In this document: one piece after another, positions 25,345 through 29,843 of the stretch
How the letters are laid out: each line of letters opens with the position of its first letter
How positions within the stretch are numbered: the stretch's first letter is position 1
Assembly (NCBI GenBank): GCA_001803045.1
Contig: MHAR01000056.1
Coordinates: forward strand, 1 to 64,000
DNA from: Ignavibacteria bacterium RIFOXYB12_FULL_35_14
GTDB taxonomy: Bacteria; Bacteroidota; Ignavibacteria; Ignavibacteriales; Ignavibacteriaceae
DNA: 64,000 nt
Direction: 5' to 3'
Notes under the pieces: model-generated
Told to the model about the DNA's origin: nothing
What the model saw: only the letters and a program-made list of their open reading frames with translations
Databases searched by the model: none
Translations under genes and position numbers: made by a program

Positions 25345-26370
25345 ATGTCCATATTAAAATTCATGACCCTTGGACGCCACATTATCGAGGGTGAAGAAAT
25401 GCACCCCGAAGCAACAGGCGAACTTTCAAAATTATTAGCCGATTTATCTTTAGCTGCTAAAGTAATTTCATTGGAGGTTAATAAAGCCGGACTCGCTGAT
25501 ATTCTCGGTTTTACTGGCGACAGCAATGTGCACGGTGAGCAAGTTAAAAAGTTAGACGTTTACGCTCACGACATGCTTATCAGAGCAATGGATCATGGCG
25601 GACATTTATGCGTAATGGCCTCCGAAGAAGAAGAAAATATAATTCATATTCCAAACAGATTTAAGATTGGAAAATATGTTTTGCTTTTTGATCCTCTTGA
25701 TGGTTCTTCAAACATCGATGCCAACATCAGTATCGGAACAATTTTTTCTATTTATAAAAGAATTACACCTGAGGGCAAACCTGGTACTTTGGAAGATTGT
25801 CTTCAGCAAGGAACACAACAGGTTGCTGCAGGTTATGTTGTTTACGGATCAAGCACAATTTTAGTTTATACAGCAGGTCACGGAGTTCACGGTTTCACTC
25901 TTGACCCTGCTTTTGGAGAATTTCTTCTGTCGCACGAGTACATTCAGATTCCGAAGAAATCAAAGATCTACAGCATTAACGAAGGCAACTATAAATATTG
26001 GCATCCCGGATTGAAGAAATACATTAAGTATTTGCAAGAGGAAGATAAAGCCAGCGAAAGGCCTTATTCATCGAGGTACATTGGCTCTATGGTTGCGGAT
26101 AATCATCGCAACCTTTTGTACGGCGGAATATTCATGTATCCTGCTGATTCAAGAAATCCTAAAGGAAAACTTCGCTTGATGTATGAATGCGATCCATTCG
26201 CTTTTATTATTGAAGCTGCAGGCGGAAGAGCAACAGACGGAAAGAAACGAATACTTGAAATTCAACCTCAATCGCTTCACGAACGAACACCAGTTTTTAT
26301 GGGAAGTGAAGAAGACGTGAAAATGGTTGAGGATTTTATGGCGAAAGAAGAAGCTGCAGAAACAAAATAA
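25345..26370 (+). CDS. fbp: Fructose-1,6-bisphosphatase, class I
   Basis: A metal-dependent phosphatase of gluconeogenesis that converts fructose 1,6-bisphosphate to fructose 6-phosphate. The 341-residue chain has the inositol-phosphatase-fold metal motif DPLDGSSNID (116-125) and an upstream acidic MASEEEE (91-97). A strong AAGGGAGAAA ribosome-binding site precedes the ATG. The 3-prime end has a decayed second copy about 720 bases downstream, beyond the toxin-antitoxin islet. Confidence 0.96.
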   Translation: MSILKFMTLGRHIIEGEEMHPEATGELSKLLADLSLAAKVISLEVNKAGLADILGFTGDSNVHGEQVKKLDVYAHDMLIRAMDHGGHLCVMASEEEENIIHIPNRFKIGKYVLLFDPLDGSSNIDANISIGTIFSIYKRITPEGKPGTLEDCLQQGTQQVAAGYVVYGSSTILVYTAGHGVHGFTLDPAFGEFLLSHEYIQIPKKSKIYSINEGNYKYWHPGLKKYIKYLQEEDKASERPYSSRYIGSMVADNHRNLLYGGIFMYPADSRNPKGKLRLMYECDPFAFIIEAAGGRATDGKKRILEIQPQSLHERTPVFMGSEEDVKMVEDFMAKEEAAETK

Positions 26371-26379
26371 AACCGTAGG

Positions 26380-26397
26380 GACACAATGCATTGTGTC
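26380..26397. terminator. Perfect 18-base palindrome after fbp
   Basis: GACACAATGCATTGTGTC lies ten bases after the fbp stop and just before the convergent parE-like toxin gene. It can fold as a bidirectional terminator. It also has the form of a common interspersed repeat (GTAGGGACACAATGCATTGTGTC). Confidence 0.55.
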
Positions 26398-26407
26398 TTA
26401 ATTGAAA

Positions 26408-26716
26408 TTAACAGTTCTTGTTTTTGAATATCTCCTCTGTTTTCAATAATTGATGTCCCTCAAAAACAGTAAGAACATTTATTGTATTTTTCTTAACCAA
26501 ATAAACAGTTCGATAATTCTTGTGTAATAATTCTCGAATGTTCTCAATGGACAATTCAGGAACCACCCTTCCTTCTTTGGGATTATTAACCAGCGTTTCA
26601 GACAAATCAATTAATCTATCTACAAATTCAATCGCGATGCTAGGATTATCTCGCGATATATAATCTTGAATTTCTTGTAAACGCAGCAATGCTTCTTTTG
26701 TCCAGAATACTTTCAT
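26408..26716 (-). CDS. RelE/ParE-family toxin
   Basis: A 102-residue toxin of the RelE/ParE fold. The sequence starts MKVFWTKEALLRLQEIQDYI and has NPKEGRVVPEL and RELLHKNYRTVYLV, typical of ParE-like members. ParE proteins poison gyrase while RelE proteins cleave mRNA; the pattern here favours ParE, but the target is not certain. It overlaps the antitoxin gene by 4 bases and is downstream of it, the normal order. Confidence 0.88.
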   Translation of the reverse strand: MKVFWTKEALLRLQEIQDYISRDNPSIAIEFVDRLIDLSETLVNNPKEGRVVPELSIENIRELLHKNYRTVYLVKKNTINVLTVFEGHQLLKTEEIFKNKNC

Positions 26717-27003
26717 TTGATTTTAGATACTCTAGATTTCAGCAATTCACTTCTTAATTGAGATGTTGATAATATTTCTCCCTTGTCGGAATCGGACAAT
26801 CCCCTTGATATTGAATCAATAAAAATTTTCGTTTGCCGCATCTCATCAAACTCAGAAGGAGAAATCAATACCCCGGCTGGTTTACCATTTTGAGTTATGA
26901 TCAGTGAGTTTCTTTTATGCTGAATTTCATTTAGATATTTAGCCAAATTAGATTTGAACTGACCAACCGGAATTATGTCATTTGAAATTGATATGTTTTT
27001 CAT
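26713..27003 (-). CDS. Phd/YefM-family antitoxin
   Basis: A 96-residue antitoxin with an N-terminal Phd/YefM DNA-binding domain (ISNDIIPVGQFKSNLAKYL and LIITQNGKPAGVLISPSEF) and a charged C-terminus likely to bind the toxin. A perfect palindrome upstream is the probable operator, consistent with the autoregulation known for this family. Confidence 0.9.
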   Translation of the reverse strand: MKNISISNDIIPVGQFKSNLAKYLNEIQHKRNSLIITQNGKPAGVLISPSEFDEMRQTKIFIDSISRGLSDSDKGEILSTSQLRSELLKSRVSKIK

Positions 27004-27086: not shown

Positions 27087-27218
27087 GGTTCGTAGAGCTA
27101 CAAAGACAAGAAGTCCAACCTCAGTCTCTTCACGAAAGAACTCCCGTTTTCATGGGCAGTGAAGAAGATGTTAAAATGGTTGAGGAGTTTATGGCTAAAG
27201 AAGAGCTGCAGAAATAAA
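27087..27218 (+). pseudogene. Decayed second copy of the fbp 3-prime end
   Basis: The stretch encodes QPQSLHERTPVFMGSEED followed by VKMVEEFMAKEELQK and a stop, nearly identical in protein to the C-terminus of fbp at 26259-26370. Most codons differ at synonymous positions. Upstream, AGAGCTACA corresponds to the GRAT segment of fbp, but the frame is broken by a deletion of several codons. No start or further 5-prime portion remains. It lies between the toxin-antitoxin pair and the insertion sequence. Confidence 0.85.
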
Positions 27219-27243
27219 ATAAAATATCATTGTTTACCTCAAT

Positions 27244-27280
27244 TCGGCAAAACTGTCGACTTGAATTGCAGGTTTGCCGA
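27244..27280. terminator. Hairpin at the original end of the TolB-like gene
   Basis: Arms TCGGCAAAACTG and CAGGTTTGCCGA pair at 11 of 12 positions. Before the insertion sequence arrived, this hairpin would have lain about six bases after the TAG stop (27286-27288) of the TolB-like gene. A terminator role is inferred from that. Confidence 0.55.
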
Positions 27281-27301
27281 CACCTCTATAAAACTGACTT
27301 A

Positions 27302-28806
27302 GTCGATCCTGAAAAAGTAGCAAAAGCTTCAGAAACAGAAAAGAAATAAAATAAAATAAAATAATGGAAAAGAGTTGTCAGAAACTGCAAGAAATTAATA
27401 AATTGCAGTTAAAGTCTTGCAGAATATATCACGAGAAAAAGGACAACTTTAATGATAAGCTCCTCACCAAAACAAGAGCAACAAAGCTTTCTGTATCAAG
27501 GGCTAAAAGAAATGCTCAACCCGAAAGACCCCTTGTATCAGCTAACAGAAAAGATACGCTGGGAAGATATAGAGAAAGCATTTACAAAATATTACGTTGA
27601 TTTCGGAAGACCGGCAAAACCGATCCGTTTGATGGTATCACTACTGCTGTTAAAACAGATGTACAACTTGGGAGATGAAACAGTAATAGAACAATGGGTA
27701 CAAAATCCATATTGGCAATACTTCAGCGGAGAAAAAGAATTCAGATGGAAATTTCCATTAGAGCCAAGCGACTTTGTGCACTTTAGAAAAAGAATCGGAG
27801 AAGAAGGAATAAGCAAGATACTTGAGATATCAATATTGCTACACGGGAAAGAAGCGATGGAAAAAGAAGTAGTAGTTGATACAACAGTACAAGAAAAGAA
27901 CATCACGTTTCCTACCGATACCAAGCTGCATAAAAGAATCATCGAACAAACAAGAAAAATAGCAGAGGCGGAAGACATAGAGCAAAGACAGAGTTATAAG
28001 CGAACAGTAAAGAAATTGATGATGACACAGCGATTTAGGAATCATCCAAAGAATAAGAAAAAAGCGTTGAAAGCAGAAAGAAAACTGAAAACAATAGCCG
28101 GAAGAATGCTGCGGGAAATAGAGCGAAACTTAACAGCAGAACAGAAACAAAAGTATGAATCAAAATTAGCTGTCTACAACAAAATATTAAGCCAAAAGAA
28201 AAGCGATAAAGAAAAAATATACAGCATTCATGAACCCAAAGTCTATTGCATCTCTAAAGGGAAAGAACACAAGAAATATGAATTTGGTGCAAAGGCATCG
28301 ATAGTAATCACGAAGAACAGCGGCATAATAGTCGGAGCGTACAGCTTAGAAAAGAATGCCTATGATGGGCACACATTACCGAAGGCACTTGACCAATGCG
28401 AACAATTACGAAACTTGAGACCAGCAGTAGCTATAGTTGACAGAGGTTATAAAGGAAAAACCAGAATTGGAGAAACCGAGATACTTCTACCGAAGCCACC
28501 AAGGAAAACTACAAGCGACTATGAGAAGAAAAAAGCAAGAGGAAGGTTTAGAAGACGAGCATCGATAGAACCTTTGATAGGGCATCTAAAGACAGATAAC
28601 AGAGTAGCAAGAAACTATTTGAAAGGAGTTGCTGGAGATACGATCAACATTATGTTAGCAGCAGCGGCATTTAACTTGAGAAAGTGGATGAGAAAGATGA
28701 AAAACTTTTTTGGCTTATTTTACAAAAGAATTGAAACACACATTTTTAGATTTTTGGAGTCAATTATATCAACTCCAAATCTGAAAATGACTTCTTAAGG
28801 ATCGAC
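27302..28806 (+). mobile_element. Complete insertion sequence, IS5-like, 1505 bp
   Basis: The left end GTCGATCCTGAAAAAGT and the reverse complement of the right end (GTCGATCCTTAAGAAGT) match at 15 of 17 positions. The flanks carry the same GACTTA at 27296-27301 and 28807-28812, a 6-bp target duplication. The element contains one transposase gene. Removing it with one GACTTA rebuilds an intact end of the TolB-like gene (last residues YFKSVL, then TAG), confirming the boundaries. Family assignment rests on the transposase alone. Confidence 0.88.
27452..28798 (+). CDS. IS5-family-like DDE transposase
   Basis: A 448-residue DDE transposase. The N-terminal part has the DUF772-like block (RLMVSLLLLKQMYNLGDETV and ENPYWQYF-type NPYWQYFSGE). 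The catalytic triad is seen as Asp143 (VVDTTVQ), Asp330 (AIVDRGYKG) and Glu373 (RRASIEPLIGHLK). A Lys-rich helical insertion (about 160-260) separates the first two Asp residues. The ATG follows AAAAAGGA. The frame is intact, so the enzyme may be active. The gene ends just inside the right inverted repeat. Confidence 0.92.
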   Translation: MISSSPKQEQQSFLYQGLKEMLNPKDPLYQLTEKIRWEDIEKAFTKYYVDFGRPAKPIRLMVSLLLLKQMYNLGDETVIEQWVQNPYWQYFSGEKEFRWKFPLEPSDFVHFRKRIGEEGISKILEISILLHGKEAMEKEVVVDTTVQEKNITFPTDTKLHKRIIEQTRKIAEAEDIEQRQSYKRTVKKLMMTQRFRNHPKNKKKALKAERKLKTIAGRMLREIERNLTAEQKQKYESKLAVYNKILSQKKSDKEKIYSIHEPKVYCISKGKEHKKYEFGAKASIVITKNSGIIVGAYSLEKNAYDGHTLPKALDQCEQLRNLRPAVAIVDRGYKGKTRIGETEILLPKPPRKTTSDYEKKKARGRFRRRASIEPLIGHLKTDNRVARNYLKGVAGDTINIMLAAAAFNLRKWMRKMKNFFGLFYKRIETHIFRFLESIISTPNLKMTS

Positions 28807-29843
28807 GACTTAAAATATGGACGATAATTATTTCCCCTACCATTAGTTAAATCTATAATTTCATTACTTTTAAGCATTATAATAAAAATATCAATGATGT
28901 TATTTTGCCTCTGTTCATATACTATGCTTAATCCATCTGGTGAAAAGTGCGGACTATCTTTACTTGCGCTATTATTGGTTAATCTTTTTTGATTTGTACC
29001 ATCTGTATTCATTGTATATACTTCGGTGCTATTATCTCTATTCGATATGAATACTATTTCTGCTCCATCAGGAGAGAATGTTGGTCTTATATTAAATTCA
29101 GGTGTGTTTGTTAATTGCTTTTGATTATTTCCATTGCTATCCATAATATATATTTGAGCTTTGCCACTTCTGTATGAGACAAAAAGTATTTTTGAATTAT
29201 CAGGTGAAAACGAACAAGAACCATCATAACCTTCAGAATTTGTCAATCTTTTTACATCATTACCATCAATAGTCATTGTATAAATATCATCATTATTATT
29301 ACGGTTTGATATAAATAAAATTCTTCGATCATCGGAGGAAAACTGCAATGGAAAGTCTTGACCTAATGTTGAATAGATACTATCAGCCCAGTCAGTAAGT
29401 ACTTTTTTGTTGCTTCCATCAGCATTCATTATTCCCATAAGCCCCGAAGTTTGATATAATACTTTAGAGTTGTCATTAGAAAAAGTAGGATAATTTCCAT
29501 TTCCTAAATTAATAATATGACTTCCATCGCTATCCATTATATAAATATAGGACATTAACCAATCGATGGCTGATGCATATACAATTTTTTTACCGTCAGG
29601 TGAGTATTTCGGAGAAGTATCCCAAAAATCATTCTCCGTAATCCTAGTTTGATTAGTACCGTCAATGTTCATTGTGTAGACTTCACCTTTAATTCCTAAT
29701 TCAATATGGATTTGACCATCAGAATCTCTATCTGAGATAAATACAATTTTATAATTTAAATTTTCTTGTGGTGAAACTGTATCATCAATTTTGGTACAAC
29801 TTTGTAATAAAATAGCAATGAAAATAATGATTACTAGTTTCAT
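28764..29843 (-). CDS. TolB-like PD40 beta-propeller lipoprotein, 3-prime end altered by the insertion sequence
   Basis: A 359-residue lipoprotein with lipobox LLQSC (Cys16) and repeated PD40/WD40-like units: SPDGKKIVYAS, FSNDNSKVLY, FSSDDRRILFIS, FSPDNSKILFVS, FSPDGAEIVFIS and FSPDGLSIVYE, each followed by a YTMNxDGTNQ-like strand. The last 14 residues and the stop are encoded by the insertion sequence. Without it the protein would have ended ...YFKSVL. The six or so blades are untouched, so the product is probably functional. Such propellers act as periplasmic or surface binding proteins; the ligand is unknown. Confidence 0.88.
   Translation of the reverse strand: MKLVIIIFIAILLQSCTKIDDTVSPQENLNYKIVFISDRDSDGQIHIELGIKGEVYTMNIDGTNQTRITENDFWDTSPKYSPDGKKIVYASAIDWLMSYIYIMDSDGSHIINLGNGNYPTFSNDNSKVLYQTSGLMGIMNADGSNKKVLTDWADSIYSTLGQDFPLQFSSDDRRILFISNRNNNDDIYTMTIDGNDVKRLTNSEGYDGSCSFSPDNSKILFVSYRSGKAQIYIMDSNGNNQKQLTNTPEFNIRPTFSPDGAEIVFISNRDNSTEVYTMNTDGTNQKRLTNNSASKDSPHFSPDGLSIVYEQRQNNIIDIFIIMLKSNEIIDLTNGRGNNYRPYFKSSILKKSFSDLELI

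Follow-up and report, generated by a model that had tools for sequence, protein, structure and literature searches.

Genes and elements at the locus

The window, that is, the whole stretch of 64,000 nucleotides analysed, contains an IS5-family insertion sequence (IS) overlapping the end of a gene for a secreted TolB-like PD40 beta-propeller lipoprotein (Table 1). The present product of this gene scored 179 bits with the TolB equivalog model TIGR02800, below the cut-off of 343.15, so that "TolB-like" is the right name and "TolB" the wrong one; judged from its sequence, the protein is a propeller lipoprotein resembling the propeller of TolB.

Table 1. Features of the IS, its flanks and the TolB-like gene (window positions).
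Feature	Position	Strand	Observations
Hairpin TCGGCAAA	27244..27280	.	-15.9 kcal/mol, z -3.14; closely followed the TolB-like stop before the insertion, now across the IS
Displaced original gene end, outside the duplication	27286..27295	-	Completes Val-Leu and TAG stop (27286-27288) when flanks are joined; G081 homologue ends PVL-stop
Target duplication GACTTA, left copy	27296..27301	.	Exact match to 28807-28812
IS5-family insertion sequence, 1505 bp	27302..28806	+	End-to-end alignment with G118 element, both ends present
Left terminal inverted repeat GTCGATCCTGAAAAAGT	27302..27318	+	15/17 match to right end
Transposase gene, 448 aa, intact	27452..28798	+	Sole long ORF of the IS; NF033578, Pfam DUF772 and DDE_Tnp_1
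TolB-like PD40 beta-propeller lipoprotein gene, present reading, 359 aa	28764..29843	-	Residues 347-359 and stop from the IS
Right terminal inverted repeat ACTTCTTAAGGATCGAC	28790..28806	+	Overlaps last transposase codons
Target duplication GACTTA, right copy	28807..28812	.	Inside TolB-like coding sequence

The transposase matched the NCBIfam model NF033578 (transpos_IS5_1) with 462.6 bits (cut-off 275), and its scores with other family models (ISNCY, IS1182) stayed under their respective cut-offs. The DDE triad (D143, D330, and E373) was invariant across four aligned transposases. Members of the IS5 family carry a signature of the type Y(2)R(3)E(6)K; the corresponding stretch, FRRRASIEPLIGHLK, reads F(2)R(3)E(6)K, with F replacing Y. 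Terminal repeats and a short target duplication, as in this family, were also present (ends matching at 15 of 17 positions, GACTTA on both sides), and these data support the assignment of the element to IS5. Elements falling under NF033578 are alike in having one DDE transposase ORF, a length of about 1.5 kb and short terminal inverted repeats, and nothing in the present copy distinguished it from them. Compared by tabulated features alone, it also resembles ISPhae1 of Paracoccus haeundaensis (IS5 family, IS5 group; 1485 bp, ends 16/13, 6-bp direct repeat) in its similar length, short ends and 6-bp repeat (PMC3281130).

No terminator was called at 27244-27280, and the hairpin found there does not correspond to a classical terminator because it lacks a run of T. 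Its being a repeated genomic element was discarded, as no further copy occurs in the genome. At lower window positions lies a complete fructose-bisphosphatase gene (fbp, 25345-26370), followed immediately by the palindrome GACACAATGCATTGTGTC (26380-26400), which is also found after fbp in a relative from the same genus (G001, L043). A ParE/Phd-YefM toxin-antitoxin pair (26408-27003) separates the full gene from a partial second copy of its 3' end (27107-27211; 86% amino acid identity over 35 residues); this copy looks as if an insertion had either brought the end of fbp along or duplicated it.

Ends of the element and target duplications

The initial annotation had delimited an element at 27302-28806 with ends matching at 15 of 17 positions and with identical GACTTA flanks; its coordinates proved exact on rechecking, and the two GACTTA copies were located immediately outside both ends (Table 1). 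We then counted inverted pairs that matched at 15 or more of 17 positions, were separated by 500-2500 bp and had an exact direct repeat of 6 bp at their borders: the real 3.5-kb stretch contained one, and 20 random sequences generated under an order-1 Markov model contained none. The inverted pair by itself occurred on average 1.5 times per random sequence of 3.5 kb (n = 20) and is therefore no evidence on its own; the joint expectation for pair and repeat, estimated by multiplying both rates, was approximately 0.0008. This frequency of chance pairs is what would favour the view that the TolB-like gene natively ends as it does today and that the repeats are fortuitous. Against it, the interval is occupied by an intact IS5 transposase, a related element, with a duplication of its own, occurs elsewhere in G118, and homologues of the TolB-like protein lack the tail; on sequence comparison this view is already refuted by the relatives, and its probability is practically negligible.

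The closest relative of the IS, a 1500-bp element from G118 (L158), of the same order, aligned end to end with 1150 of 1505 alignment columns identical; its transposase is 80% identical and its ends are near-identical, whereas its duplication is TAAATA instead of GACTTA. The leftmost 60 bp of the IS share AGAAATAAAATAAAATA with positions 27210-27226, which raised the possibility that they were host DNA; this was rejected because the G118 element aligns through them. Transposases of the IS5 family on plasmids of Leptospira, Aliarcobacter, and Sulfurospirillum are more distant (44-47% identical to that of the window). The scan of viral contigs gave no relative of the transposase, and phage records contained only partial ones (about 27-35%).

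In order to define the ends of the relatives, full-length copies were collected by transposase similarity and then examined for matching terminal repeats with a direct repeat of 2-10 bp. Exact 6-bp duplications were obtained in seven independent relatives with clear ends, and all seven conformed to TANNTA (TAAATA in G068, G041, and G118, TATATA in G086, TAATTA in G103, and TATTTA and TAACTA in the plasmid copies of Sulfurospirillum and Leptospira, respectively). The plasmid copy of Aliarcobacter, unlike these last two, lacked a clean 6-bp duplication. For several relatives the ranking also contained an alternative register, displaced by 1-2 bases, in which the terminal repeats matched over a little more length and the direct repeat was shorter; the 6-bp register was the one common to all seven. 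The copies in G046, G018, and G080, which are more degraded or more remote, agreed in direction. A 2-bp TA duplication with a flanking preference was discarded as an explanation, since all seven relatives agree exactly over six positions and the duplication in the window includes two bases, GA, that do not belong to a TA. Because full-length relatives share similar ends and exact 6-bp duplications, the boundaries of the IS are supported independently of the window sequence.

The GACTTA of the window departs from TANNTA at two bases, with only the second TA kept, and yet it is perfectly duplicated. A tentative proposal, to which we attach a rather low probability, is that the transposase clade represented in this order and on plasmids of Leptospira and Sulfurospirillum regularly selects TANNTA as its target, duplicating 6 bp, and may constitute a distinct IS5 subgroup whose target rule is undescribed, the window copy being off-consensus. 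A targeted search of the literature found no statement of such a rule, although one could still exist. Separately, a 230-bp sequence in G020 (C41, L092, 1064-1293) displays both IS-like ends with almost no transposase between them, is flanked by TATTTA and TAATTA, and is possibly a MITE-like deletion derivative.

The original end of the TolB-like gene and its present tail

When the flanks were joined with a single GACTTA, the reading frame encoded a 348-residue protein ending in NNYRPYFKSVL, followed by a TAG stop (CTA on the forward strand, 27286-27288). The initial annotation had proposed this same ending (YFKSVL and TAG) and an insertion two codons from the stop; rejoining gave an identical result, with the insertion inside the Ser346 codon, two codons ahead of TAG. 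It had also attributed the last 14 residues and the stop to the IS: the origin of tail and stop stands, whereas the count is 13 whole residues plus one base of Ser346. Thus, in the present gene Val-Leu is replaced by the 13 IS-encoded residues SILKKSFSDLELI (347-359) and a TAA stop within the IS (28764-28766), and the third base of the Ser346 codon comes from the IS (TCA to TCG, a synonymous change).

Among 80 genomes searched within the family, a single close homologue, free of the IS, was retrieved, in G081 (L134/L149, C120; 73-74% identical, 74% over 344 residues). Its gene ends in NNYKPLFGPVL-stop, in exact register with the joined sequence, and in G002 a less similar homologue terminates with DYPDWNPKK-stop at the same alignment column. 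The reconstructed gene end is confirmed by the stop of the IS-free G081 gene at the aligned position. The initial annotation had expected IS-free relatives to show the gene end followed by the hairpin; the Val-Leu-stop was found, but the hairpin TCGGCAAA was not seen beside the G081 stop and the gene is at another locus. According to our reading of the ORFs, YbbR-like and thymidylate kinase genes adjoin it in G081, and this genome therefore shows the original gene end without being an empty site for the present locus. Searching 31-80 related genomes for the neighbouring genes (fbp, SufE-like, and TolB-like) revealed no empty site at the same locus. The genus is represented by one further genome, G001; its sequence stops shortly after fbp, and it has no close TolB-like gene. 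A scan of genome contigs with the TolB-like protein returned only distant matches (22-36%). An empty site in the same species is predicted to read AAGTCAGTTTTATAG on the gene strand, with one GACTTA. The closest homologue belongs to a different genus and neighbourhood, while nearer relatives lack the gene, which hints at horizontal transfer of the lipoprotein gene.

All these data taken together lead us to consider that an IS5-family element transposed into the end of the TolB-like lipoprotein gene (probability around 0.95), an event ordinary in kind, well supported and probably harmless. DDE transposases generally cut their target in a staggered manner; here, the observed duplication suggests a cut at GACTTA with a 6-bp stagger, after which repair would have left two copies. 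The element entered the Ser346 codon two codons short of the original stop, and translation now proceeds for 13 codons into the right IS end, against the direction of the transposase, up to the TAA.

In an AlphaFold model (mean pLDDT 74) based on an alignment of two sequences, a shallow depth that limits its reading, the last propeller strand comprised residues 339-344 and residues 346-359 had pLDDT values lower than 50. The new tail, small and unstructured in the model, is probably inert, considering these values and its position past the last strand; most likely the protein works as before with a floppy tail, since the propeller is complete ahead of the junction. A captured tail kept by selection, through changed function or stability, would agree with a frame that is open through the IS end and with the integrity of the rest of the gene. 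We regard this as very unlikely: the perfect 6-bp duplication is consistent with a recent insertion, the model predicts a disordered tail, any insertion at a gene end yields some such tail, and a 44-bp remnant of the element at a broken gene has one frame that reads as a similar peptide (SIIKKLFSDLELI), indicating that the peptide simply follows from the IS end.

Copies in the assembly and implications of the insertion

The assembly (4.10 Mb, 95 contigs) contains the IS in full only once, a count that rests on sequence search. The initial annotation had suggested looking for further copies; a second complete one did not appear, and the search yielded a single right-end remnant, the 44-bp sequence mentioned above (93% identical; C28:28123-28166, L003, G000), whose outer flank is TAATTA. 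It lies where a broken galT-like reading frame, adjoined by a galactokinase-like gene, loses similarity to intact homologues; this frame is also broken upstream by stops. An intact galT-like gene is present on the same contig at about 11963. This remnant shows that the same element, or one closely related to it, was once present at another place in the genome.

The fragmentation of the assembly into 95 contigs could be invoked in favour of an artefact in which the IS had been joined to the wrong flank. With a single full IS copy there is no second one to drive a misjoin, and a misjoin is unlikely to produce exact duplications on both sides together with a joined end matching that of G081; an assembly error thus seems highly improbable.

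The likeliest effect of the insertion is that the lipoprotein carries a small tail, unstructured as judged from the model, and that the gene is cut off from the sequence that used to follow it. The locus illustrates clearly how an IS can provide both the stop codon and the tail of a gene, here one whose ancestral end is confirmed by a homologue, and warns for annotation that the last 13 residues of this TolB-like protein are not native. The 6-bp TANNTA target rule offers a simple marker for the ends of related elements.
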